Program-made: the position numbers and the translations under genes | NCBI GenBank assembly: GCA_012728655.1 | Contig: JAAYEQ010000039.1 | Location: 1-33,511 of the forward strand | From: Syntrophomonadaceae bacterium | GTDB lineage: Bacteria > Bacillota > Syntrophomonadia > Syntrophomonadales > DTU052 | Reading direction: 5' to 3' | Length of the DNA: 33,511 nt | The notes under the pieces: generated by a model | Told to the model about the DNA's origin: nothing | What the model saw: only the letters and a program-made list of their open reading frames with translations | The model's database searches: none | Part shown: piece after piece, positions 13,372-24,892 of the stretch | How positions within the stretch are numbered: the stretch's first letter is position 1 | Layout: each line of letters starts with the position of its first letter

Positions 13372-14100
13372 CTAAGGATAGACTACAGGTTTCTGAGGCG
13401 GGAGCTGGTATTGGGCAGGTATGATCGGGTCGCGAGCTTTGTATTTCTTGACCGGGAAGATCCGACGGGCTTCCAGAAAGTGTTCGCCGTACCACCAGGT
13501 AAAGCTGTTGGTTATACCGATGGCGGTGGGACGCCCGGACACGGTGTGAATTATGCAGGGTTTACCGTTGATCTTTCCCATATATAAGGCAACGTGGCTG
13601 ATGTATCGGTTGCCTTTGGAATCCTTGTTCCAGAACAACAGGATATCGCCGACCCAGAGCTTATCGACTCCAACCAGCTCCCATTTTTTTGTGCTTCCCG
13701 GCTGCAGCCGGGAGTAGACTCCGGCTACCTTTCTTCCCACCTTGTCATAATCCCTGGCCTTGGTGGTTATGTCAAATCCGAAGTCTTTGTAAATCAGGGA
13801 AACAAAGTTGGAACAGTCAATCCGGCCATCCTTCGCATAGTTGGAGTGCCCATAGACCATGTAACCGTTTTCCATATACCAGATGGCCCTTTTGATCAGC
13901 TTCTGCCCCAGCGTACCTTTATAATTTGCAAAAAAGGCCTTGACGATTGGAACCTCGTGCTTCTGGTAAGCCGGCATGTTGGCGTAATACGCGGCTATGT
14001 ATTCATTGCTGGTTTTGGCTGAAACTTCGGGAGCCGCGGTTGCGCCAATGCCTATAAGCATGGCCAGACATAAGCATAAAACCGTTATTTTTCTAAGCAT
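13372..14100 (-). CDS. Secreted NlpC/P60 cysteine peptidase or amidase
   Basis: 242 residues from ATG 14100, five bases after AGGAGG; the GTG at 14106 overlaps that site. A signal peptide (about 1-28, hydrophobic core VLCLCLAMLIGIGA, cleavage near VSAK) sends it outside. The NlpC/P60 domain has DCSNFVSLIY (nucleophile Cys), GDILLFWNK, ISHVALYMG (His) and IIHTVSG (third residue). It likely hydrolyses peptidoglycan stem peptides or related amides. The C-terminal tail is Pro-rich with QLPPQKP. It lies 170 bases after amtB on the same strand, separated by a gap with a second ribosome-site-like element, and is probably a separate unit. Confidence 0.85.
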   Translation of the reverse strand: MLRKITVLCLCLAMLIGIGATAAPEVSAKTSNEYIAAYYANMPAYQKHEVPIVKAFFANYKGTLGQKLIKRAIWYMENGYMVYGHSNYAKDGRIDCSNFVSLIYKDFGFDITTKARDYDKVGRKVAGVYSRLQPGSTKKWELVGVDKLWVGDILLFWNKDSKGNRYISHVALYMGKINGKPCIIHTVSGRPTAIGITNSFTWWYGEHFLEARRIFPVKKYKARDPIIPAQYQLPPQKPVVYP

Positions 14101-14269
14101 ACGCACCTCCTGCCAACAAACTTGAATCGAATCCTTGTACTTGCTTTATCTGCTGCCCTCCTTTCCTCTGGTTTTCTGTGTATTTAACTGGTTCGACCAG
14201 GAGGTGCGCTCCCCTTTAGGTAAATGGTGGCAAGGCTCAACCGGTCCGATAACGGCGGGCGGAAAACGG

Positions 14270-15592
14270 CTAGGCCTGCTCCCCGTGCAGGGCCATATCC
14301 AATCCCATTTCTTCCTCCTCCTCGCTAACCCGCAGGGAGGTAAACAGCTCGATAACCTTGAGGAGCAGGAAGGTTACGCCGCCGGAATAAACCCAGGTAA
14401 CGGCTACCGCCACCAATTGAGCCAGCAGGAGGTGCCAGTTGCCAAAGAGCATACCGTCAGCCCCGGCCGGGTTTATCGCCATGGAAGCGAAGACACCGGT
14501 AGCAATAGCCCCCAGAGTTCCACCCACTCCATGGATTCCGAACACATCGAGGGAATCGTCGTACCCCAGCTTCACTTTAAGCCTGCTAACCGCCAGGTAA
14601 CAAACCGGTGAAACCAGCAAACCAATGGCGATGGCTGCCAGGGGACTGACAAAACCGGCCGCAGGAGTTATGGCTACCAAACCGGCCACGGCACCGCTGG
14701 CGGCTCCCAGGGTGGTGGGTTTACCGTGATCAAGCCATTCGGCCGCCACCCAGGACAGGGCCGCCGCCGCAGTACAGGTATTGGTGACCAGAAAGGCGTG
14801 CGCCGCCAGCCCGTTGGCCGCCAGGGCACTCCCGGCGTTGAATCCGAACCAGCCGAACCACAGCAGCCCGGCTCCGAGGACGGTCAAGGGCAGGTTATGA
14901 GGAAGGATCGGATTATGCCCGTAACCTATCCGCTTGCCCAGTACCACCGCCGCCGCCAGGCCGGCGATGCCTGAACTGATGTGGATCACTGTGCCCCCGG
15001 CGAAATCGAGGGCTCCGAGGCCTGACAACCATCCTCCCTCTCCCCAGACCCAGTGGGCAACCGGATCATATACCAGCGTGGTCCAGAGGAGAATAAATGC
15101 CAGGAAGGCAGAAAACCTCATGCGTTCGGCAAAGGCGCCGGTTATCAGGGCAGCGGTTATGACGGCAAACATCATTTGAAACGCCGCAAAAGCCATATGA
15201 GGAATGGTGGTGGCGTAGGTGCCGCTGGGCTCCTGACCTACCCCGCTGAATCCCAGCCACTCCAGGCCGCCGATCAGGTGCCCGATATCGGGACCGAAAG
15301 CCAGCGAATACCCCAACAGGACCCACTGCACCGATACCAGTCCCATAACCATCAAGCACTGCATCAGTACGCTCAGAACATTCTTCTTCCTGACCATACC
15401 GCCGTAGAATAAGGCCAATCCGGGGGTCATGAGCAGCACCAGAGCCGCACACACCAGGATGAATCCGGTATCCCCCACGTTGATGCCCGCTGTCTCCGCC
15501 GCCCTGACCGGCTGCGGGTTGGAAATTACGAATAAAAATACTGTGCTTAATAACAATATCAACCTTTGTGACCACATTTTAAGCAGTTTCAT
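14270..15592 (-). CDS. amtB: Ammonium transporter (Amt/MEP/Rh family)
   Basis: 440 residues, ATG after GGGAGGG. A signal-like N-terminus (about 1-31) precedes eleven membrane segments. The pore histidines are in GGTVIHISSG and DVFGIHGVGG, and the family stretches DTGFILVCAALVLLMTPGLALFYGGMVR and GLLWFGWFGFNAGSA are intact. It lets ammonium in as ammonia or by facilitated transport. The C-terminus (about 405-440) is acidic with EEEEEMGLDMALHGE, the tail that PII contacts. The PII gene lies upstream on the same strand, as in most glnB-amtB pairs, with a regulated-looking hairpin leader between them. Confidence 0.97.
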   Translation of the reverse strand: MKLLKMWSQRLILLLSTVFLFVISNPQPVRAAETAGINVGDTGFILVCAALVLLMTPGLALFYGGMVRKKNVLSVLMQCLMVMGLVSVQWVLLGYSLAFGPDIGHLIGGLEWLGFSGVGQEPSGTYATTIPHMAFAAFQMMFAVITAALITGAFAERMRFSAFLAFILLWTTLVYDPVAHWVWGEGGWLSGLGALDFAGGTVIHISSGIAGLAAAVVLGKRIGYGHNPILPHNLPLTVLGAGLLWFGWFGFNAGSALAANGLAAHAFLVTNTCTAAAALSWVAAEWLDHGKPTTLGAASGAVAGLVAITPAAGFVSPLAAIAIGLLVSPVCYLAVSRLKVKLGYDDSLDVFGIHGVGGTLGAIATGVFASMAINPAGADGMLFGNWHLLLAQLVAVAVTWVYSGGVTFLLLKVIELFTSLRVSEEEEEMGLDMALHGEQA

Positions 15593-15749
15593 TGTAAACC
15601 CTCCCTATCTAAGAGTTTTTCAGCACACACCGGCAGTCGGCCCGTCGTTCCCTGAAAAAGGATCGAGAGAGGATGTGTCGATGCCGTCGTTTCTCCCATC
15701 CGGAGTGGAACAAGTTCCCGACCGCATTTACGATGGATCCCTCGTAACG

Positions 15750-15803
15750 AAAAAAGGCGCTTGTCGGTGAGTTCACCTCAATTAACAAGCACCTTTGCTC
15801 TTT
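15750..15803 (-). promoter_or_regulatory. Candidate ANTAR-responsive terminator leader of amtB
   Basis: On the minus strand a 12-bp terminator (AAAGGTGCTTGT with ACAAGCGCCTTT, then TTTTTT) spans 15796-15750. Its 5' arm can pair instead with upstream bases as AAGAGC-AAAGGU-GCUUGUU, giving a six-base loop with A at position 1 and G at position 4. These two folds exclude each other. The architecture matches the second hairpin of ANTAR target RNAs, and an ANTAR regulator is coded in the same island. No clear first hairpin was found here. Confidence 0.5.
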
Positions 15804-15874
15804 TTGCATGTTATTCCCGGATGCAGCTTCGCCGGATGTCTTCTCCAGCACCGAAAATCTATATTCCTCTGTGT

Positions 15875-15916
15875 GGTCGAGCTCGACCGCTTCCCCGGGG
15901 CGGTCGTCCGCCGGGG
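15875..15916. repeat. Two adjacent strong inverted repeats after the PII gene
   Basis: GGTCGAGCTCGACC (15875-15888) is a perfect 14-base palindrome. A GC-only hairpin (CCCCGGGGCGG with CCGCCGGGG around a TCGT loop) follows at about 15893-15916. They lie between PII and the amtB leader and may slow or process the transcript. Neither has a T tract. Confidence 0.5.
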
Positions 15917-15967
15917 CGCTGTTTATGCCGCTGCTCGGCTATTCCTTGATGAATCTGCCCTTTTTGT

Positions 15968-16306
15968 CTACAGGGCGTCATCACCGCGTTCCCCGGTGCT
16001 GATGCGAACAATTTCCTCCAGCGGGTAGATGAAAATCTTGCCATCCCCGGCCTGGCCGGTCTGGCAGACCCTGAGGATAACTTCAATGATTCTTTCCACC
16101 CAGTGATCTCGACAGATGAGTTCCACCTTGACCTTGGGATAAAGGTCCACCAGATGCTCATGGCCGCGGTGATACTGTTTTTGCTCCCGCTGCAGACCCT
16201 TGCCCATAACTTCATAGATCGTCATTCCCCGGACCTTCAAGTCGGTAAGGGCGGCCTTCAGCTCTTCCAACTTGTTGGGTCTGATGATAACCTCCAGCTT
16301 TTTCAC
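15968..16306 (-). CDS. glnB: PII signal protein
   Basis: 112 residues from GTG 16306, seven bases after AGGAGGT; the longer upstream frame crosses the leader hairpins. The family reads cleanly: KKLEVIIRPNKLEELKAAL, a T-loop GLQREQKQYHRGHEHLVDLYPKV, the core GDGKIFIYPLEEIVRISTGERGDDAL with the ATP/2-oxoglutarate site. The Tyr51 that enterobacteria uridylylate is His51 here, so modification at that position is not expected. PII senses 2-oxoglutarate and ATP/ADP and probably gates AmtB, whose gene lies next downstream. It may also act on GlnA or the ANTAR pathway. Confidence 0.93.
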   Translation of the reverse strand: MKKLEVIIRPNKLEELKAALTDLKVRGMTIYEVMGKGLQREQKQYHRGHEHLVDLYPKVKVELICRDHWVERIIEVILRVCQTGQAGDGKIFIYPLEEIVRISTGERGDDAL

Positions 16307-16363
16307 CAGAAACACCTCCTTTAAAACCCATCCGGTGTTACAGGTTGGCGAATGCTGACCTGT

Positions 16364-16417
16364 AAAAAGGGTGCTCCCACACCTCTCCTGGTGTTGACAG
16401 CACCCTTGCTTCTGAAC
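16364..16417 (-). promoter_or_regulatory. Candidate ANTAR-responsive terminator leader of glnB
   Basis: Minus-strand terminator AAGGGTGCT / AGCACCCTTTTT (16407-16364) with an inner 5-bp hairpin. The competing fold is GC-AAGGGU-GC extended by GUU/AAC with an internal loop (16417-16393): a six-base loop with A1 and G4. A further hairpin, ACAGGT / ACCTGT (16363-16340), follows the T tract. The placement, between the glutamate synthase genes and glnB, suggests expression of the last two genes is set separately. Confidence 0.5.
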
Positions 16418-16511
16418 TATATGCCGTAATTTCGGAAATAACCAACCCCACACCGTACAGGAAAACCAAATTTCGCCTGCATAAGGCTTATTCAGACCGG
16501 TTTCGGTTTCC

Positions 16512-17246
16512 TCAGGCTCCAACATACATGGACCCGTAGGGGCGACGGGCCCGGGGAGTCAGTTTGACGAACCCGTCTTTCAGGACAGCGGCGGCATCAA
16601 GCCCAAAAAGCCCGGCAAACCTGGCTATGTTTCCGGCAATCAATGCCAGGTCCTCATCATCCGGTGAGGAAACCACCACCCCCTTTCCCGCGTATCCCGG
16701 AAAACTCCGGGCGTTAACGAAGATCGAACCCCCGTACATGCCGACTCCGCACTGCCGGCCCACAGCCGCAGCGTCGCTGTCCAGCCCCAGCACGATTATG
16801 GTACCTCCCGCCATATACTCTCCCAGAAAGTCGCCGGCGGTTCCCCCGATAATCAGAACCGGTCCCTGTCCTTCCCCGGCTTTAATATGCACGCCGGTTC
16901 GTGACCCCACATCACCCCGAATCAAGATCTCTCCTCCGCACATTCCATACCCGAGTATGTCTCCGGCGCGGCCTTCCACAATTATGGAACCGGCGTTCAT
17001 GGTGTTGCCGGCACAGTCCTGGACATTGCCCTTTACCGTAATCTCAGGTCCGTTCATGTATGCTCCCAGGTCGTTGCCACCCGTTCCGTTCAACTCGATC
17101 TTCAAGGGTCCTCTTAAACCGCAGGCGATGTAACGGTGGCCGTTGACATTGGACAACGACAGCCTGGTTGCGCCGCCTGCCACCGCCTCTCTGATGCGGG
17201 AGTTAAGCCGGCGATAGTCAAGTCCCTTCGCGTCTATGGCGTACAT
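16512..17246 (-). CDS. Glutamate synthase GXGXG domain subunit (archaeal-type, alpha domain 3)
   Basis: 244 residues. The right-handed beta-helix of GXGXG repeats is seen from about 60 to 205: GNTMNAGSIIVEGRAGDILGYGM, GGEILIRGDVGSRTG, GGTAGDFLGEYMAGGTIIVLG and GVGMYGGSIFV. In full-length GltB this domain couples the amidotransferase and FMN domains; here it is a separate subunit, as in archaea and several Clostridia. It lies 25 bases after the flavin reductase gene and has an AGGAGG-like site (GGAGGTAGTGCG) before ATG. Confidence 0.92.
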   Translation of the reverse strand: MYAIDAKGLDYRRLNSRIREAVAGGATRLSLSNVNGHRYIACGLRGPLKIELNGTGGNDLGAYMNGPEITVKGNVQDCAGNTMNAGSIIVEGRAGDILGYGMCGGEILIRGDVGSRTGVHIKAGEGQGPVLIIGGTAGDFLGEYMAGGTIIVLGLDSDAAAVGRQCGVGMYGGSIFVNARSFPGYAGKGVVVSSPDDEDLALIAGNIARFAGLFGLDAAAVLKDGFVKLTPRARRPYGSMYVGA

Positions 17247-17271
17247 CGCACTACCTCCTTCACAATGAAAA

Positions 17272-18510
17272 TTACAGCCCGGTGATTGCCGTGGGCAGGC
17301 AACTTCTCACGTCTACTCCGTTCAGGCGGGGCTGGAGCAGCAGGGATTCATGGCCTTCAATGCGCACCCGCTTCCGGATCATCCCGGTAATGATTCCCAT
17401 ATTGTCCACATGGTTTATGGCTATCAGACCGGTTACACCCCCGTCCTGAAGGACAATCTTTCTGTAGTACGGAGGATTGTCGCCAACTGCGCAAAGCCCT
17501 TCCGCCCTGGAATCTCCAGCGGTCATGATCGCCATATCCAGGAGGCTTACGGAGTTTACCGCCAGGGAACCCCGGTATACGGCCTCATGACCCGCCATAT
17601 TCATTCCGGCGATCCTCCCCTGCTCCCAGGCCAGCGGCAGGATGGGAACCACTTTTTTATCCCCGGACAGCAATTCTTGGGCTTGAGCCACATCGCCGGC
17701 CGCATACACCGACGGTATGCTGGTCTCCTGGTGCTCATCAACCAGGATTCCCTGCCCGGTATCGATACCCGTACCAGCGGCCAGAGCCAGATTTGGTCTA
17801 ACCCCGGCGGCGATTATCACCATATCGCAATCAAGATGGCTGCCGTCCGTAAATACGACCTCTTTAACCCGGGGAGTGCCTTCCAGAGATGAAACCTCCA
17901 TCCCCAGTTTGCATTCCACGCCTTTGCTTCGCAGATGCCGTTCCACCATTTCCCCTCCCACCGGATCCAGGATGCCGGAGAGTGGGTAGGGCGCCAGATC
18001 CACCACCGTCGGCTTGGCGTTAAGGTAATACAGGGCCTCGGCGGCCTTTAATCCCACCAGGCCGGCCCCGATCACCGCCACCCTTATGCCGGGCATCACC
18101 TGGAGCCGGATCCTTTCAACATCCTCCAGGGTGTAAAACCCCACCACATTGTCGCGGCCAGCAGCCAGGCGGTCATACAGCAGGGGAGTACCGCCCACGG
18201 CCAGCAGAAGCTTGTCATAGGGGATTTTTTCTCCGCTCTCCAGTGTCACTACCCCATCAGGGGCCAGGTTACAGGCTTTTCCGGTTATCACCTGCACCCG
18301 GTTCCGCTGATAAAACTCGGGTTTTCGGTAGTACAGTCCCGCTCGGTCAATTTTCCCCGCCAGGTAGTAGGAGATGAGCGGCCGGGAGTAATAGGGGTCC
18401 GGTTCATCACTGATCACGGTAATGGAGCCTTCCCGGTCAAACTTTCGTATGCCTTCGATTGCTCCCACTGAGGCAATAGAGCCTCCGATAATCACATAGC
18501 GCATTCTCAT
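17272..18510 (-). CDS. NAD(P)/FAD-dependent oxidoreductase of the glutamate synthase cluster
   Basis: 412 residues, class like NirB/rubredoxin reductase. FAD-binding GGSIASVGA at the N-terminus, NAD(P)-binding VAVIGAGLVGLKAAEAL at about 145-161, and the second FAD motif IPSVYAAGDVAQA near 267-279. It probably feeds electrons from NAD(P)H or ferredoxin to the FMN subunit. ATG 18510 overlaps the ferredoxin stop (ATGA), a sign of coupled translation; ATG 18504 is also possible. No redox-active cysteine pair is seen, so it is not a disulfide reductase. Confidence 0.9.
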   Translation of the reverse strand: MRMRYVIIGGSIASVGAIEGIRKFDREGSITVISDEPDPYYSRPLISYYLAGKIDRAGLYYRKPEFYQRNRVQVITGKACNLAPDGVVTLESGEKIPYDKLLLAVGGTPLLYDRLAAGRDNVVGFYTLEDVERIRLQVMPGIRVAVIGAGLVGLKAAEALYYLNAKPTVVDLAPYPLSGILDPVGGEMVERHLRSKGVECKLGMEVSSLEGTPRVKEVVFTDGSHLDCDMVIIAAGVRPNLALAAGTGIDTGQGILVDEHQETSIPSVYAAGDVAQAQELLSGDKKVVPILPLAWEQGRIAGMNMAGHEAVYRGSLAVNSVSLLDMAIMTAGDSRAEGLCAVGDNPPYYRKIVLQDGGVTGLIAINHVDNMGIITGMIRKRVRIEGHESLLLQPRLNGVDVRSCLPTAITGL

Positions 18511-18995
18511 CCCTCCCTGGTCGTGGATTCAACAACTTCAACTTCTCTCAGAATCAGGGCCCGGTTGGGGCAGGCCGCTACACAGGCCGGAAACTCCCGC
18601 TCCAGGCAGAGGTCGCATTTGTAGGCCTTCCCCCGCCCCGTCCCGGGACCGATGATGGCCCCTTCCGGACAGGCGATCACACAACTCCAACAGCCCACGC
18701 ATTTCTGCTCATCGATAAGGACGACACCGGTTTCCTCATCCCGGGTGGCGGCTCCGGAGATGCAGATCTTCACGCACTCGGGGTCCTCGCACTGAAGGCA
18801 CCTGACGCTGCGAAAACTCATACCGTCAGCGGAGCTTTCAACACTCATCCGGGGCACCGGTCTGCTCCCGGTCTTCATCGCCTTGACAATGCTTAAAGGA
18901 TAGGCGGAATGGGCTACCTGGCAGGCAAGGCGACAGAGGCCGCAGCCCATACAGTATTCATCCTGTGCTTCAACCCGGCGAACAACTGCTGTCAT
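18507..18995 (-). CDS. Four-cluster [4Fe-4S] ferredoxin-like subunit
   Basis: 162 residues with four cysteine groups: CMGCGLCRLAC, CLQCEDPECVKIC, CVGCWSCVIACP and CDLCLEREFPACVAACP. This is the HycB/DmsB-like pattern of electron-transfer subunits. It probably passes electrons between the flavoprotein and the FMN subunit. Its start overlaps the end of the FMN subunit gene by four bases. Confidence 0.92.
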   Translation of the reverse strand: MTAVVRRVEAQDEYCMGCGLCRLACQVAHSAYPLSIVKAMKTGSRPVPRMSVESSADGMSFRSVRCLQCEDPECVKICISGAATRDEETGVVLIDEQKCVGCWSCVIACPEGAIIGPGTGRGKAYKCDLCLEREFPACVAACPNRALILREVEVVESTTREG

Positions 18996-20491
18996 TCTCC
19001 CACCGCCTTTATTCCCAGGATTTCCAGCTCCCGCTCGGTAAGCCCCAGCCCCCGCAGCATCAAGCGGTTGCCCCGCAGGCTTTCAATGGCGTTCATTCCC
19101 ATGCCGCCCAGGAACTCCGCCAGTTCGTGTTTCCAAGCCCGAAGGAGGTTTTCCGCCCGCAGGGTGCCGATATCAGGATTAAGCCTCCGGGCCAGGCGCG
19201 GATTTACCGTAGCTATGCCCCAGTTGCACTTCCCGGTATAGCAGTTCTGGCACATGTGGCAGCCCAAGGCTACCAGGGCCGCAGTTCCGATATATACGGC
19301 GTCGGCACCGAGAGCGATGGCTTTGGCGACATCGGCGCTGTTGCGGATTCCGCCCGATACCACCAGGGAAACCTCGTTGCGGATCCCCTCCTCCCGCAGC
19401 CGCCTATCCACCGCCGCCAGGGCAAACTCCACCGGTATACCCACATCGTTGCGTATGCGCAGGGGAGTGGCGCCGCTGCCGCCCCGGTAGCCGTCGATAA
19501 CCAGAATATCGGCTCCGGCCCGGGCCATCCCCGAGCAGATCGCAGCAACGTTGTGAACGGCCGCGATCTTCACCGCCACCGGCTTGCGGTAGGCGGTGGC
19601 CTCTTTCAGCGAATAAATAAGCTGGCTCAGGTCTTCAATGGAGTATATGTCATGGTGAGGGGCCGGCGAAATGGCATCGCTGCCCGGGGGTATTTTCCTG
19701 GTCCGGGCCACCTCACCGGTTACCTTTTCTCCCGGCAGATGGCCCCCGATGCCCGGCTTGGCCCCCTGCCCGATCTTAATCTCAATGCAGGCCCCTTCTT
19801 CCAGGTATTCGGGCGAAACCCCAAAGCGGCCCGAAGCCACCTGGACAATGGCGCGGTCCCGGTAAGCGCGTACTTCGGGGTGGAGTCCGCCCTCCCCCGT
19901 ATTCCAATAAGTCTTCTGACTCATGGCAGCCCGCGCCAGCGACTTATGGACGTTGAGGCTGACCGAACCAAAAGACATTGCCGCGAACATTACCGGGATC
20001 TCCAGTTCAAGCTGCGGGTACTTCTCAGGAGCATCCAGGCTGTTCTTCCGATTAAGCGGCGGTTTGCGCCCCAGAAAGGTTTTTAGCTCCATGGGCTCCC
20101 GCAGGGGATCAATGGAGGGGTTGGTAACCTGGCTGGCATTCAGCAGGATCCGATCCCAGTAAACCGTATCGGGGCGGCTGTGTCCCATACCGGACAGAAG
20201 TATACCCCCTGAATCCGACTGCAGGTGTATTTCGTTGATAACCGTGGAGGTCCACAGCCCGTGTTCCCGGGTCCGAGAGGCAAAGGACACCACCCGGAGG
20301 GCTCCGGTGGGACACAGGTGAACACAGCGCTGGCAGCCCACACACTTAATATCATCGGCACAAACGCTTTCGTCATAAGGATCCCGGAAGTGGACCTCGT
20401 TGGCGCACTGGTTGACACAAACCCCGCATCCTACACAGCGGTCGAAATCCCGTCCAATCTCAAATTTTGCTTTTTGCAGCTTCAGCATCAT
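18992..20491 (-). CDS. Glutamate synthase FMN-binding subunit with N-terminal ferredoxin domain (archaeal type)
   Basis: 499 residues from ATG 20491, after GGGGGAAGCG. An N-terminal 2x[4Fe-4S] module has CVGCGVCVNQC and CVGCQRCVHLCP. The glutamate synthase TIM barrel follows from about 90: MSFGSVS, GEGGLHPEV, KIGQGAKPGIGGHLPG, AGADILVIDGYRGGSGATP and VSGGIRNSADVAKAIALGADAV. The [3Fe-4S]-type region CHMCQNCYTGKCNWGIAT is near 415-432. It condenses 2-oxoglutarate with ammonia from the amidotransferase and reduces the product to glutamate, with reduced ferredoxin as likely donor. Overlaps the amidotransferase gene by 32 bases. Confidence 0.94.
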   Translation of the reverse strand: MMLKLQKAKFEIGRDFDRCVGCGVCVNQCANEVHFRDPYDESVCADDIKCVGCQRCVHLCPTGALRVVSFASRTREHGLWTSTVINEIHLQSDSGGILLSGMGHSRPDTVYWDRILLNASQVTNPSIDPLREPMELKTFLGRKPPLNRKNSLDAPEKYPQLELEIPVMFAAMSFGSVSLNVHKSLARAAMSQKTYWNTGEGGLHPEVRAYRDRAIVQVASGRFGVSPEYLEEGACIEIKIGQGAKPGIGGHLPGEKVTGEVARTRKIPPGSDAISPAPHHDIYSIEDLSQLIYSLKEATAYRKPVAVKIAAVHNVAAICSGMARAGADILVIDGYRGGSGATPLRIRNDVGIPVEFALAAVDRRLREEGIRNEVSLVVSGGIRNSADVAKAIALGADAVYIGTAALVALGCHMCQNCYTGKCNWGIATVNPRLARRLNPDIGTLRAENLLRAWKHELAEFLGGMGMNAIESLRGNRLMLRGLGLTERELEILGIKAVGE

Positions 20492-21617
20492 CGCTTCCCC
20501 CTTCCCCGGCATACAGCGGTTCCCGTTCCGGGTGGGTCAAATCGACTTTCCCCCACACGGGCTCCCCTCCCCGGGGCGACCAGATACGGTTGATACCCGT
20601 AAGAATCTTTCTAATGGCCGCCTCCTCGCTGGCCACGGCTACGAAGTCCTCATTTTCCGCCGCCACCATCGGCCGCAGTTTAAGCCGGTCATTGAGTGCC
20701 ATTATCCCGTCGGGCGTGGCCAGCACGATGGAAAACGGCCCGTTCAGCAGCAGAGAAGAAAAAACCGCTCGTATCCTGGTTATCCGGTTTGCCGTTTCCT
20801 CCTCCATCATGGCGAGCTCATCCCAAAGCGGAGGTGCCACGATGAGGGCCGCTTCTTCCTGAGACATCCCCAACCGGCGACAGAGGAAATCGAATATGTA
20901 GGCAATCACCTCGGTATCGGTCTGCAAGCTGCAGCGGTAACCGTACATCTCGATAAATCTCCGGTTGGCATCATAAGAAGATATCTCCCCGTTATGGATT
21001 ACCGTTGTTTCCAGGAGGGCAAACGGGTGCGCTCCTCCCCACCAGCCGGGGGTGTTGGTGGGAAACCGACCGTGGGCGGTCCACAAATACCCCCGGTACT
21101 CATCCAGGCGGAAGAAATCCGCAATATCCTCGGGGAACCCAACCCCTTTAAACACTCCCATGTTTTTGCCGAAGGATACGATGTAGGCCCCGTTGGATGC
21201 GGCATTCACCCCGGTTATAAAAGAGACCATAAATTCTTGGCGCCGGACCGGCTCCTCTGCCAGCAAGCTGTTTTCCGGGCTCACAAAATACCTCCATATT
21301 ATTGGTGGATTGTGTATCTCATCATTCCTGCGGGTGGGAATGGGTCCGGTACTGACCACCCGAAAATGCCGGCGAAGCTGGTACTCAAACTCTCTTTTCT
21401 CAGGGATACCATCGAAGAAAACATGGACCGCGTAGTAGTCCTTCATCTCCGGATAGATCCCATAGGCGGCAAATCCTCCTCCCAGGCCGTTGGAACGTTC
21501 GCGCATCACCGCAATGCAGTCGGCAATCCGCGTGCCGGCAAAGGGTAGGCCGCGGAGGTTGACCAGCGCGGCGATGGCGCAACCCGCAGGGATTCGTACA
21601 TCACCCTCTCTCAGCAT
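20460..21617 (-). CDS. Class II glutamine amidotransferase subunit of glutamate synthase
   Basis: 385 residues from ATG 21617, after GGAGGAGAGGTG; a GTG at 21659 is an alternative. GATase_2 features: RIPAGCAIAALVN holds the nucleophile Cys, about 12 residues from the chosen start, so a short propeptide must be removed to expose it. RSNGLGGGFAAYGIYPE, TAHGRFPTNTPGWWGGAHPF and VIHNGEISSYDANRRFIEMYGY, DTEVIAYIFDFL complete the glutamine site. It releases ammonia from glutamine for the FMN subunit. About 100 bases of non-coding sequence separate it from glnA. Confidence 0.92.
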   Translation of the reverse strand: MLREGDVRIPAGCAIAALVNLRGLPFAGTRIADCIAVMRERSNGLGGGFAAYGIYPEMKDYYAVHVFFDGIPEKREFEYQLRRHFRVVSTGPIPTRRNDEIHNPPIIWRYFVSPENSLLAEEPVRRQEFMVSFITGVNAASNGAYIVSFGKNMGVFKGVGFPEDIADFFRLDEYRGYLWTAHGRFPTNTPGWWGGAHPFALLETTVIHNGEISSYDANRRFIEMYGYRCSLQTDTEVIAYIFDFLCRRLGMSQEEAALIVAPPLWDELAMMEEETANRITRIRAVFSSLLLNGPFSIVLATPDGIMALNDRLKLRPMVAAENEDFVAVASEEAAIRKILTGINRIWSPRGGEPVWGKVDLTHPEREPLYAGEGGSDDAEAAKSKI

Positions 21618-21719
21618 CTTTTTCACCTCTCCTCCTGTAAGAGAAAGCTCATCCGGCACCTGCCCCAGTAGGCCATGTAGGGAGGTAGGCTAACGGCACC
21701 GGATGCAGCTTTCAAAGCT

Positions 21720-23054
21720 TTAGAACACCGACAGGTACTCGTCAAGTTCCCACTGGTGCACCGAACAGCGGTACCTATCCCACTCGACTCTCTTGGCCTC
21801 GGCCAGCTTGTTGTAAATGTGAGGCCCAAGAGCCTTCTTTATTACCTCATCATTGCTCAGTTCCTCCATGGCCTCCGCCAGGCTGCTGGGGAGGCTTGCG
21901 ATCCCCAGGCTTTCCCTCTCCTTCTGGGTCATGTGATAAATATTGCGGTCAACAGGGGCCGGGGGCTCAATCTTATTCTTTATCCCGTCCAGACCGGCTG
22001 CCAGCATTGCGGCAATCGCCAGGTAAGGGTTGCACGACGGATCGGGGTTGCGCACTTCGATACGGGTGCTGGACCCGCGCTTGGCCGGGATCCTTATCAA
22101 ACAACTGCGGTTGAAATGGGACCAGGCCACATACACCGGTGCCTCGTATCCGGGGATCAGACGTTTGTAGGAATTGACCAGCGGATTGGTAACCGCGGTC
22201 AGGGCCCGGGCATGCTTGATAATGCCGCCGATGTAGTACCGGGCCACATCACTAAGCCCGTTGGGATCATCAGGGTCGTGGAAAGCGTTTTTCCCATCCA
22301 GGGTAAACAGCGATTGGTGGCAGTGCATGCCGGAGCCGTTAATATTCGCCACCGGTTTGGGCATAAAGGTGGCATGAAGTCCGTGACGCTGAGCTATTGA
22401 TTTGACCACCAGTTTAAAGGTCTGGATCTTATCGGCGGTGCTGACAGCCGTGTCATACTTGAAATCGATCTCGTGCTGCCCCGGTGCCACCTCATGATGA
22501 GAGGCCTCGACTTCATAGCCCATTTCCTCCAGGGTTAAAACCATGTCCCTCCTGGCATTTTCCGCCAAATCCGTCGGCCCCAGGTCAAAATAGCTGGCCT
22601 GGTCATGGGTTCTGGTGGTGGCATTGCCGGATTCATCCTGCAGGAACAGGAAGAATTCAGCCTCCGGTCCCACATTCATGACAAAGCCCATTTCCTGAGC
22701 CTCCTTGGCTACCCGCTTCAGGGCCAGACGCGGGCATCCTTCAAACGGACGGTAATCCTTGTCATACACGTCGCAGATCAGGCGGGCTACATCCAGATTG
22801 GGTGACCTCCAGGGAAATATTACGAACGTTGACGGGTCCGGTATAAGGTACATATCCGATTCCTCAATGCGAACAAAGCCCTCAATGGAAGACCCGTCAA
22901 ACATCAACTCCCCTTCCAGGGCCTTCTCCAATTGGCTGATGTGTATGGCCACATTTTTCAAATGGCCCATCAGGTCGGTAAACTGCAGGCGGATAAACCT
23001 TACCCCGTTGGCCCGTGCTTTTTCTAAAACCTCACGACTAAGCTCATTTTTCAT
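21720..23054 (-). CDS. glnA: Glutamine synthetase type I (GSI-alpha)
   Basis: 444 residues, the length of the Bacillus/clostridial GSI-alpha class. Conserved parts: [20 protein letters not shown] (metal Glu), [49 protein letters not shown] and [16 protein letters not shown]. The C-terminus ([12 protein letters not shown]) is of the GSI-alpha form, and I see no adenylylation Tyr region, so control is likely feedback and transcriptional. It makes glutamine from glutamate, ammonia and ATP. ATG 23054 overlaps the stop of the ANTAR gene (ATGA), so the two are translated together. Confidence 0.97.
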
Positions 23055-23620
23055 AATTCACTCTCTCCCTTCCCTGATGTTTTACTTAAGGCAATAACCG
23101 CTTCAGCAACGGCTTTAAGCGGCAGACCCCGGTCCATGCTGGTCTTCTGTAAAAAGCGGTGGGCTTGCTCCTCGCTCATCCCCTGTTCCAGCATCAGAAT
23201 TCCTTTGGCGATGTCAACCGCCCGGCGCGTAGCCAGTTGTTTTTGCAGCCTTGCCACCTCCTGCAAAAGCCTCATCCTTTTTCGGTAGCCGGTGAGGGTT
23301 GATTCGATGGCGGGGATGAGGTTGGTGGCGGTTACCGGTTTAAGGATGTAGCTAAAATCCTTGATCCAGGGATCAGCACTTGATGCCAGTATCAAAACCG
23401 GTGCCACACCGTCTTCCTCCAGTATCATAGCCACCTGTCCGACCCTGCCCCCTTCCAGCTCGCTATCCATAATTACCATTTCCGGCGATTGACTCCGGCA
23501 GATGCGCAGGGCTTCTGATGCGTTATGGGCTTCACCGCTGACTGAATACCCATTATGGAACAGCAGTTCTCTTATGGTGTTCCTGGTGCCGGGGTCGGAC
23601 ACGGCCAGCAATACCCTCAC
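23051..23620 (-). CDS. ANTAR-domain response regulator (NasT/AmiR type), RNA-binding antiterminator
   Basis: 189 residues from GTG 23620; the longer frame starts inside the leader terminator. The receiver domain (about 1-110) keeps an acidic residue (VSDPG), phospho-acceptor IMDSEL and the lysine in YILKPV. A coiled linker ([18 protein letters not shown]) leads to the ANTAR domain: [46 protein letters not shown]. Such proteins bind tandem hairpins with six-base loops and stop terminators forming. A kinase is not adjacent. Four candidate targets lie in the same island, including one just upstream of this gene, which suggests autoregulation. Confidence 0.92.
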
Positions 23621-23642
23621 GCTCTCCACCCCCCTTAGAAAC

Positions 23643-23746
23643 AAAAGGTGTCTCTACTCTAGGTAGAAAGACACCTTTGCCCTTACCAAAAATCTTTATT
23701 TTCCCGGTAATTATGACCAATCAAGGATATCGTCTTTGATTTCCTT
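23643..23746 (-). promoter_or_regulatory. Candidate dual-hairpin ANTAR leader of the glnA operon
   Basis: P1 lies at 23746-23723: AAGGA-A-AUC closes on GAU-A-UCCUU around the loop AAAGAC (A1, G4). P2 lies at 23687-23662: GGU..AAGGGC with GUCUUU..ACC around AAAGGU (A1, G4). The terminator (23678-23643), AAAGGTGTCT with AGACACCTTTTG, uses the same bases as P2, so P2 and terminator exclude each other. Of the four candidates only this one shows both hairpins. The linker between P1 and P2 is about 35 bases, longer than I would expect. Confidence 0.6.
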
Positions 23747-23774
23747 TTCAGCCGCTTGACCTTGCACCCACCGC

Positions 23775-23797
23775 TTAATTCCGCATCGTGGAATTAA
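23775..23797 (-). promoter_or_regulatory. Perfect 8-bp palindrome downstream of the glnA-operon start, likely IclR-family operator
   Basis: TTAATTCC-N7-GGAATTAA, core CCGCATCGTGG. It falls about 20-45 bases into the predicted transcript. The other operator (23864-23880) shares TTCCGCAT and GTG.AA. Confidence 0.6.
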
Positions 23798-23823
23798 ATT
23801 TCATTATTTGTTGGGCTGACTTA

Positions 23824-23853
23824 ATTGTATATCGGAGTCGAGTGGTATGTCAA
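23824..23853 (-). promoter_or_regulatory. Promoter of the ANTAR-glnA-glt operon
   Basis: Minus strand: perfect TTGACA at 23853-23848, spacer 18, TACAAT at 23829-23824. Start predicted near 23817. It lies between two palindromes, as expected if a regulator controls access. Confidence 0.7.
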
Positions 23854-23863
23854 ATGAAATTTT

Positions 23864-23880
23864 ATTCCGCATAGTGAAAT
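23864..23880 (-). promoter_or_regulatory. Second copy of the IclR-type palindrome just upstream of the -35
   Basis: Imperfect palindrome read on the plus strand as ATTCCGCATAGTGAAAT, flanked by AAATTT-like arms on both sides. It shares TTCCGCAT and GTG.AA with the site at 23775-23797. The gene for an IclR-family regulator ends about 155 bases further upstream. Confidence 0.5.
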
Positions 23881-23956
23881 TTTTTGATGAAAGCCAGGGA
23901 TGCCTACTGCCGAAAAACCGGCTTGGCACCTCAAACCACAGGGCGTGGCTCAATGC

Positions 23957-24008
23957 AAAAAGGCGTCCCGCGCATGTATTTACACCATACGCAAGGACGC
24001 CTTTGTCC
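23957..24008 (-). terminator. Terminator after the IclR gene that can also form an ANTAR-type hairpin
   Basis: Terminator AAAGGCGTCC with GGGACGCCTTTTT (24004-23957) beginning about 30 bases after the IclR stop, with a long AT-containing loop. Its 5' arm also forms GGAC-AAAGGC-GUCC (24008-23995), a perfect 4-bp stem with an A1/G4 six-base loop. It may simply end the IclR transcript; if the ANTAR protein binds it, IclR reads through into the glnA operon. Confidence 0.6.
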
Positions 24009-24034
24009 GCCGACGGTATTCAGTTGGGAATCAG

Positions 24035-24856
24035 TCAATCACCCTGATACCCGAGCTTCCTGGATAGACGCAGGGCGACATCCTTTACGATCGGAATCAG
24101 TTCGTTGCTGATATACGAGGGTGTCATCCTCATGCTGGGCCCGGATACGCTGATGGCCGCCACAACTTTGCCGCCATGAGTCTTAATGGGCGCGGCCACA
24201 CACCTGACATCTTCATCCCGCTCACCCAGGTCCAGGGCATAACCTTCCCGTCTCACCCGGGCCAGCTCTTTGGCCAACATCTTGGGGTCGGTTATGGTGT
24301 CACGGGTGAACCGCTCCAACTTGGTGGTGGCCAGGTAGTGGTCCAGTTCTTCCTGGCTGAGCGCTGCCAGGAGTACCTTTCCCGATCCGGTACAGTGAGC
24401 CGGACCCCGATTGCCCACCCGGGCAAACATCTTTACTATCACTATATTATTCGATTCGATCTGATCGATGTATACCACCTGGTAGTTGTCCAGGACCGCC
24501 AGATTCACCGTCTCATTGCATTGCTCCAGCAGTTCCTGCATAAAGGGGGCGGCCACCGCTTTCAGATCCATGGAATCCGCCGCGGCATTGCCGATGTAAA
24601 ACAGCTTGAGCGACAGCCGGTAGCGGCTGTCCTCATCCTGTTCCACAAAGCCCCTCACCAGAAGGGTGTTCAACAGGCGGTGGGTGGTGCTGGGCTTCAG
24701 ACCCACCTTGTCGGCCAGGTCCCCCAGGTTTATGGGACCCCCATAATCGGCCATGGCCTCAATGATGTTGAGCACTCTCTCCACCGACTGAACCGTTTTG
24801 GGCTCGTCTCCCACTGACGACGAGTCGCTGATTTCCACCAGATTGTCAACGCTCAT
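24035..24856 (-). CDS. IclR-family transcriptional regulator
   Basis: 273 residues from ATG 24856, six bases after TTGGAG; the upstream TTG (24868) overlaps that site. Winged helix-turn-helix at about 22-80: LGDLADKVGLKPSTTHRLLNTLLVRGFVEQ. The effector domain (about 90-270) contains NETVNLAVLDNYQVVYIDQIES, RVGNRGPAHCTGSGKVLLAALS, LDLGERDEDVRCVAAPI and the ending AAISVSGPSMRM. The ligand of this family is a small carbon compound; which one cannot be read from sequence. Its location beside two palindromes around the glnA-operon promoter suggests it controls that promoter. Confidence 0.93.
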   Translation of the reverse strand: MSVDNLVEISDSSSVGDEPKTVQSVERVLNIIEAMADYGGPINLGDLADKVGLKPSTTHRLLNTLLVRGFVEQDEDSRYRLSLKLFYIGNAAADSMDLKAVAAPFMQELLEQCNETVNLAVLDNYQVVYIDQIESNNIVIVKMFARVGNRGPAHCTGSGKVLLAALSQEELDHYLATTKLERFTRDTITDPKMLAKELARVRREGYALDLGERDEDVRCVAAPIKTHGGKVVAAISVSGPSMRMTPSYISNELIPIVKDVALRLSRKLGYQGD

Positions 24857-24892
24857 CACGATCTCCAATCAATTCCTTATATTAGTTATACT

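Follow-up and report, generated by a model that had tools for sequence, protein, structure and literature searches.

Results

Organization of the locus

The analysed DNA (the window) is a 33,511-nucleotide stretch from a Syntrophomonadaceae bacterium, in which the minus strand carries, in this order, nfnB, nfnA and iclR, a terminator-like hairpin (23958-24004, between iclR and box 1), a promoter, and the genes for ANTAR, glnA, split GOGAT, glnB and amt (Table 1). Two related palindromes bracket the promoter. The perfect one, TTAATTCCGCATCGTGGAATTAA (8-bp arms, N7, 23775-23797, identified by sequence inspection), contains box 2 and is centred near +31 relative to the start, while its imperfect copy, box 1, is centred near -55; the two boxes are 77% identical and 86 bp apart from centre to centre. 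iclR ends at 24035, which is 155 bp upstream of the boxed promoter region. The original prediction of a perfect and an imperfect palindrome, one on each side of a TTGACA/TACAAT promoter, with an IclR-family gene ending just upstream, proved correct in all these respects; third half-sites, mirror symmetry and a second target upstream of gdhA were absent from it.

Table 1 Features of the locus with their positions in the window
Feature	Position	Strand	Description	Basis
iclR	24035..24868	-	277 aa, proposed operator binder	Pfam HTH_IclR + IclR_C
Box 1 ATTCCGCATAGTGAAAT	23864..23880	.	Upstream box, half-sites H1/H2, centre ~ -55	Sequence; kept in G003
H3	23854..23860	.	ATTTCAT (minus strand), abuts -35	Placement with respect to box 1 shared by 17 other promoters
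-35	23848..23853	-	TTGACA	Sequence; position consistent across 18 promoters
-10	23824..23829	-	TACAAT, spacer 18 from TTGACA	Sequence
H4	23798..23804	.	ATGAAAT (minus strand), mirror third half-site, ~+13 to +19	Sequence; 100% kept in G003
Box 2 core ATTCCGCATCGTGGAAT	23778..23794	.	Downstream box, H5/H6, ~+23 to +39	Sequence
P1	23723..23746	-	Leader hairpin, hexaloop AAAGAC (A1, G4), candidate ANTAR target	
P2	23644..23686	-	Leader hairpin, hexaloop AAAGGT, overlaps terminator-like hairpin just before ANTAR gene	
ANTAR gene	23051..23620	-	Response regulator, operon gene 1	Pfam ANTAR 2.7e-20
glnA, split glutamate synthase genes, glnB, amt	14270..23054	-	Remainder of proposed target operon	

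Box 1 fully matches WTTYCRYW3RYGRAAW, the motif given for the WTT-11-AAW subgroup of IclR group 1 in the main text of Suvorova and Gelfand 2021 (PMC8222616), and in box 2 GAT replaces the W3 core. H3 and H4 each lie in register, 20 bp from the outer half-site of their own box, and the layout is mirrored around the promoter as H1 H2 - 3 bp - H3 - promoter - H4 - 3 bp - H5 H6. Searched in the window, the regions upstream of iclR and nfnB yielded no such site.

The ANTAR gene likely starts at the GTG at 23620, and its longest ORF begins at 23644. Its leader contains two hairpins with A1/G4 hexaloops joined by a linker of about 36 nt, the second overlapping a terminator; ANTAR control of nitrogen genes, which the original prediction took as given, can on this basis be called plausible rather than established. 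In the sister genome G003, P2 is kept and P1 contains two mismatched pairs. An Rfam scan of the window detected no known RNA. A similar hexaloop/terminator precedes the ANTAR-gdhA operon of G038.

The GS-GOGAT operon lies beside iclR only in G000 and G003 (block 14106-24035) and is missing in the sister G001, where iclR is followed by a homolog of the gene at window 13372-14106 and the gltS homolog is absent. The operon was therefore gained here or lost in G001; its promoter nevertheless shares the operator layout with gdhA. A close gdhA ortholog and a GOGAT operon or split GOGAT were sought in G001 (L031), and none was found, with iclR being kept. Given G001, the IclR protein may have other targets.

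Recurrence of the boxes in the genome

The pattern TTYCRCNNNGYGRAA occurs exactly at 7 places in the 2.31 Mb genome, compared with 2 for a control pattern. Two of the seven are the boxes at this promoter, and among the remaining five the CAT core is found only on contig C57, upstream of gdhA, where a one-mismatch partner lies 79 bp off. The window genome thus has a second box pair, at gdhA. Scattered single sites elsewhere (L056-L075) are mostly intragenic and were set aside as chance. In 518,571 bases of collected loci, 20 box-pair combinations were detected, compared with none in five dinucleotide shuffles. All 20 lie upstream of gdhA, ANTAR-gdhA, ANTAR-glnA or Glu_synthase genes, a restriction that partly reflects the selection of many of the loci, which were taken because they contain iclR or a site, although not for containing a pair. 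The check put forward with the original prediction, a search for the same site elsewhere in the genome and in relatives, thus returned matches at gdhA, in the sister operon and in other families.

Conservation of the operator layout in relatives

In G003 both operators are retained at a distance of 86 bp despite insertions in the DNA upstream of them; identity to the window is 94% for each 17-bp box and 100% for the third half-sites, against 77% between the two boxes. Box pairs at an ANTAR-glnA promoter occur in the window genome and one sister. Elsewhere, the gdhA promoters of seven genomes carry two boxes 78-81 bp apart, the ANTAR-gdhA operon of G038 has a pair 73 bp apart, and promoters of stand-alone glutamate synthase genes are bracketed by a box pair in other Bacillota families. 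In family f16, iclR is followed by a 546-aa Glu_synthase gene whose promoter has both operators exactly 79 bp apart. G431 contains glnA, ANTAR, gdhA and iclR together with a Glu_synthase gene that is preceded by an array of four IclR boxes (L148 6996-7237; spacings 74, 76 and 77 bp).

Eighteen promoters have in common the order box 1 - 3 bp - H3 - TTGAC. In all 18, a distance of 18 or 19 bp separates the -35 from the centre of box 1, and this distance is their most constant feature. H3, offset by +20 from H1, agrees in four or more of its six positions in 18/18 promoters, and H4 does so in 17/18; a third half-site in fixed register beyond an inverted pair is the PcaU-like three-box arrangement. 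A second box with an inward mirror half-site is found 73-86 bp away in 17 promoters, and in the eighteenth (L180) box 2 is degenerate. Across the 398 genomes, the H2-H3-(-35) pattern has seven exact matches, all in genomes with an IclR ortholog and five beside iclR; at one mismatch it yields mostly noise. The pattern also occurs, with no obvious second box, in G268 and G158 (L177 612-634; L179) at a putative hydrogenase gene, which judged by eye resembles a monomeric iron hydrogenase.

The gatCAB promoters of G000, G003 and G001 share GTGGAAT-CCR-ATTTCAT (L063 ~3044; L195-L197 ~1140-1175), and G002 has a version with three half-sites. gatCAB is possibly a weak third target.

The IclR-family protein

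The protein encoded by iclR has an N-terminal HTH_IclR (9e-17) and a C-terminal IclR_C domain (4e-55). Its top NCBIfam model is BhcR (NF045644), at 223 bits and thus under the cut-off of 350. Orthologs are present in 9 of the 63 genomes of the order, with matches in 34 of the 398 of the phylum, and the IclR tree placed the window protein among those of its order (SH-aLRT 98), within the Bacillota proteins. Bacillota orthologs differ very little in the recognition helix (LKPSTTHRLL), and a GERDE..RC stretch is conserved in most of the closer ones. iclR lies beside Glu_synthase genes in f16, f70 and f133 and beside gdhA or ANTAR elsewhere, including G058, G043 and G044, where iclR immediately follows a co-oriented gdhA.

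The keto-acid pocket of IclR/AllR consists of Gly160, Ala161, Asp212, Ser239 and Ser241 in E. coli IclR numbering (PMC11323563). In the window protein, Gly, Asp and both Ser are kept, making a keto-acid effector plausible from the sequence; position 161 is Ser, where IclR/AllR have Ala, and the identity of the effector therefore stays at the level of a candidate. Physiologically, 2-oxoglutarate would make sense in this role.

Discussion

A proposed glutamate-synthesis switch

Because the sites are kept in the sister operon, are common to gdhA and glutamate synthase promoters and often lie beside iclR, the palindromes are best read as candidate operators of the adjacent IclR-family protein. More specifically, each is likely the outer portion of a three-half-site operator of this protein, the two operators being mirror images, and the conserved job of the protein would be the control of glutamate synthesis. 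The analysis itself documents where the sites lie, how they are arranged and conserved, that they are confined to glutamate genes and that they are linked to iclR; binding, repression over activation, the effector and any looping are inferred.

In the proposed mechanism, two IclR dimers or one tetramer, probably the latter, would occupy H1-H2-H3 upstream, abutting the -35, and IclR would also sit on H4-H5-H6 just past the start, with the promoter held between two operators and RNA polymerase kept out or blocked. Release of IclR would come from a small keto acid signalling nitrogen shortage, for which 2-oxoglutarate is the obvious candidate. Transcripts that have started would next meet the leader terminator, which the ANTAR protein could open. 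The proposed target here is the ANTAR-glnA-GOGAT-glnB-amt operon, and elsewhere gdhA and glutamate synthase. Box spacings across the promoters (73, 77-81 and 86 bp) do not hold to a single helical phase, which argues against a rigid loop.

The main rival to repression is activation by the same protein from the same sites, in which the upstream three-box operator would recruit polymerase in the manner of PcaU or PobR and the downstream operator would be an auxiliary or roadblock element. The upstream operator is indeed of the three-box type known for PcaU, PobR and HmgR (PMC8222616), its distance to the -35 is so constant, and one gdh match (L155) has the upstream operator part only. However, the promoters have good -35 and -10 elements, nearly all of them retain the second operator (about +13 to +39), which suits repression better, and another gdh (L149) has the downstream box only. 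We therefore regard a mainly activating role as rather unlikely, though deserving of serious consideration.

The remaining explanations fare less well. The original prediction had IclR add carbon control to the glnA operon, in line with the many IclR-family members that govern aromatic or sugar-acid catabolism (PMC8222616) and with a pocket resembling those of keto-acid binders. This was not borne out: every paired site found precedes glutamate/ammonia assimilation genes, no pair occurs at any catabolic operon among the collected loci, and conservation points to gdhA, glutamate synthase, ANTAR-glnA and perhaps gatCAB as targets. The target indicated by paired sites at glutamate genes is glutamate/ammonia assimilation, and carbon control seems improbable. 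It is also quite doubtful, and slightly more so, that the operators belong to another IclR paralog or to a regulator of another family instead of the adjacent gene. At first look the genome contains further IclR-like candidates, and f16 genomes have two IclR paralogs; against this, only one protein of the window genome passes 1e-40, the motif is the one published as the consensus of IclR group 1, and iclR adjoins site-bearing genes in several families. Chance or RNA hairpin formation can be given hardly any credence as the origin of the palindromes. Box 2 does sit in the transcribed leader and could fold, and with two mismatches allowed the window is no richer in the box pattern than shuffled sequence, but box 1 has the same sequence while lying outside the transcript, upstream of the promoter, and the conservation of pairs in many genomes with none in shuffles contradicts such an origin.

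With paired sites at glutamate-making gene promoters of several Bacillota families, the arrangement looks like a nitrogen/glutamate switch that has apparently gone undescribed, and not like carbon control. We further lean towards the broader view that one IclR protein, widespread among anaerobic Bacillota, acts through mirrored three-box operators on gdhA, glutamate synthase and glutamine synthetase, and that the ANTAR-bearing GS-GOGAT-ammonium transporter operon has come under its control as well in this genus. To our knowledge, the choice between glutamate dehydrogenase and GS-GOGAT in syntrophic and acetogenic anaerobes is poorly understood. If the proposal is true, a single IclR-family protein with conserved operators at all these promoters would be a missing regulator, many uncharacterised IclR genes would gain a function, and the effector, whether 2-oxoglutarate or another keto acid, would be directly testable.

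Comparison with known systems

The combination of a REC-ANTAR protein with a leader of dual A1/G4 hexaloops, the second over a terminator, resembles the ANTAR antitermination motif of EutV (PMC8934654). Unlike in EutV-type systems, the leader here, whose role is predicted, precedes the nitrogen-assimilation operon of the ANTAR gene itself. E. coli IclR at aceBAK belongs to the same protein family and responds to keto acids (glyoxylate and pyruvate), whereas its target is the glyoxylate bypass and both sequence and layout differ. It has two operator boxes at one promoter. NdgR/LtbR of Actinobacteria, with the motif KTYCRSMWYSYGRRM (PMC8222616, main text), is likewise an IclR-family regulator of amino-acid biosynthesis; its described targets, for LtbR, are leucine and tryptophan biosynthesis. 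The operators of PcaU, PobR and HmgR share the inverted pair with an external direct half-site (PMC8222616, main text). In contrast to the proposed regulon, these proteins govern aromatic catabolism. They are not known to flank a single promoter with two mirror-image three-box operators.

In the open literature we found no IclR-family protein described as controlling gdhA or glutamate synthase in these bacteria, although supplementary regulon tables may already list one, and the main text of PMC8222616 names no glutamate-synthesis regulon. Nor did we find a report of mirrored three-box operators around a promoter for the IclR family. The box motif and three-box sites are thus already known, and the mirrored geometry and the glutamate-synthesis regulon are the parts for which we found no report. 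As in the group-1 motifs of PMC8222616, the box here is of the WTT-11-AAW type, and its main text predicts three-box sites of alternating direction for 32 ortholog groups. The tandem sites described there are 18-22 bp apart, whereas here two mirrored three-box operators lie 73-86 bp apart around the promoter.
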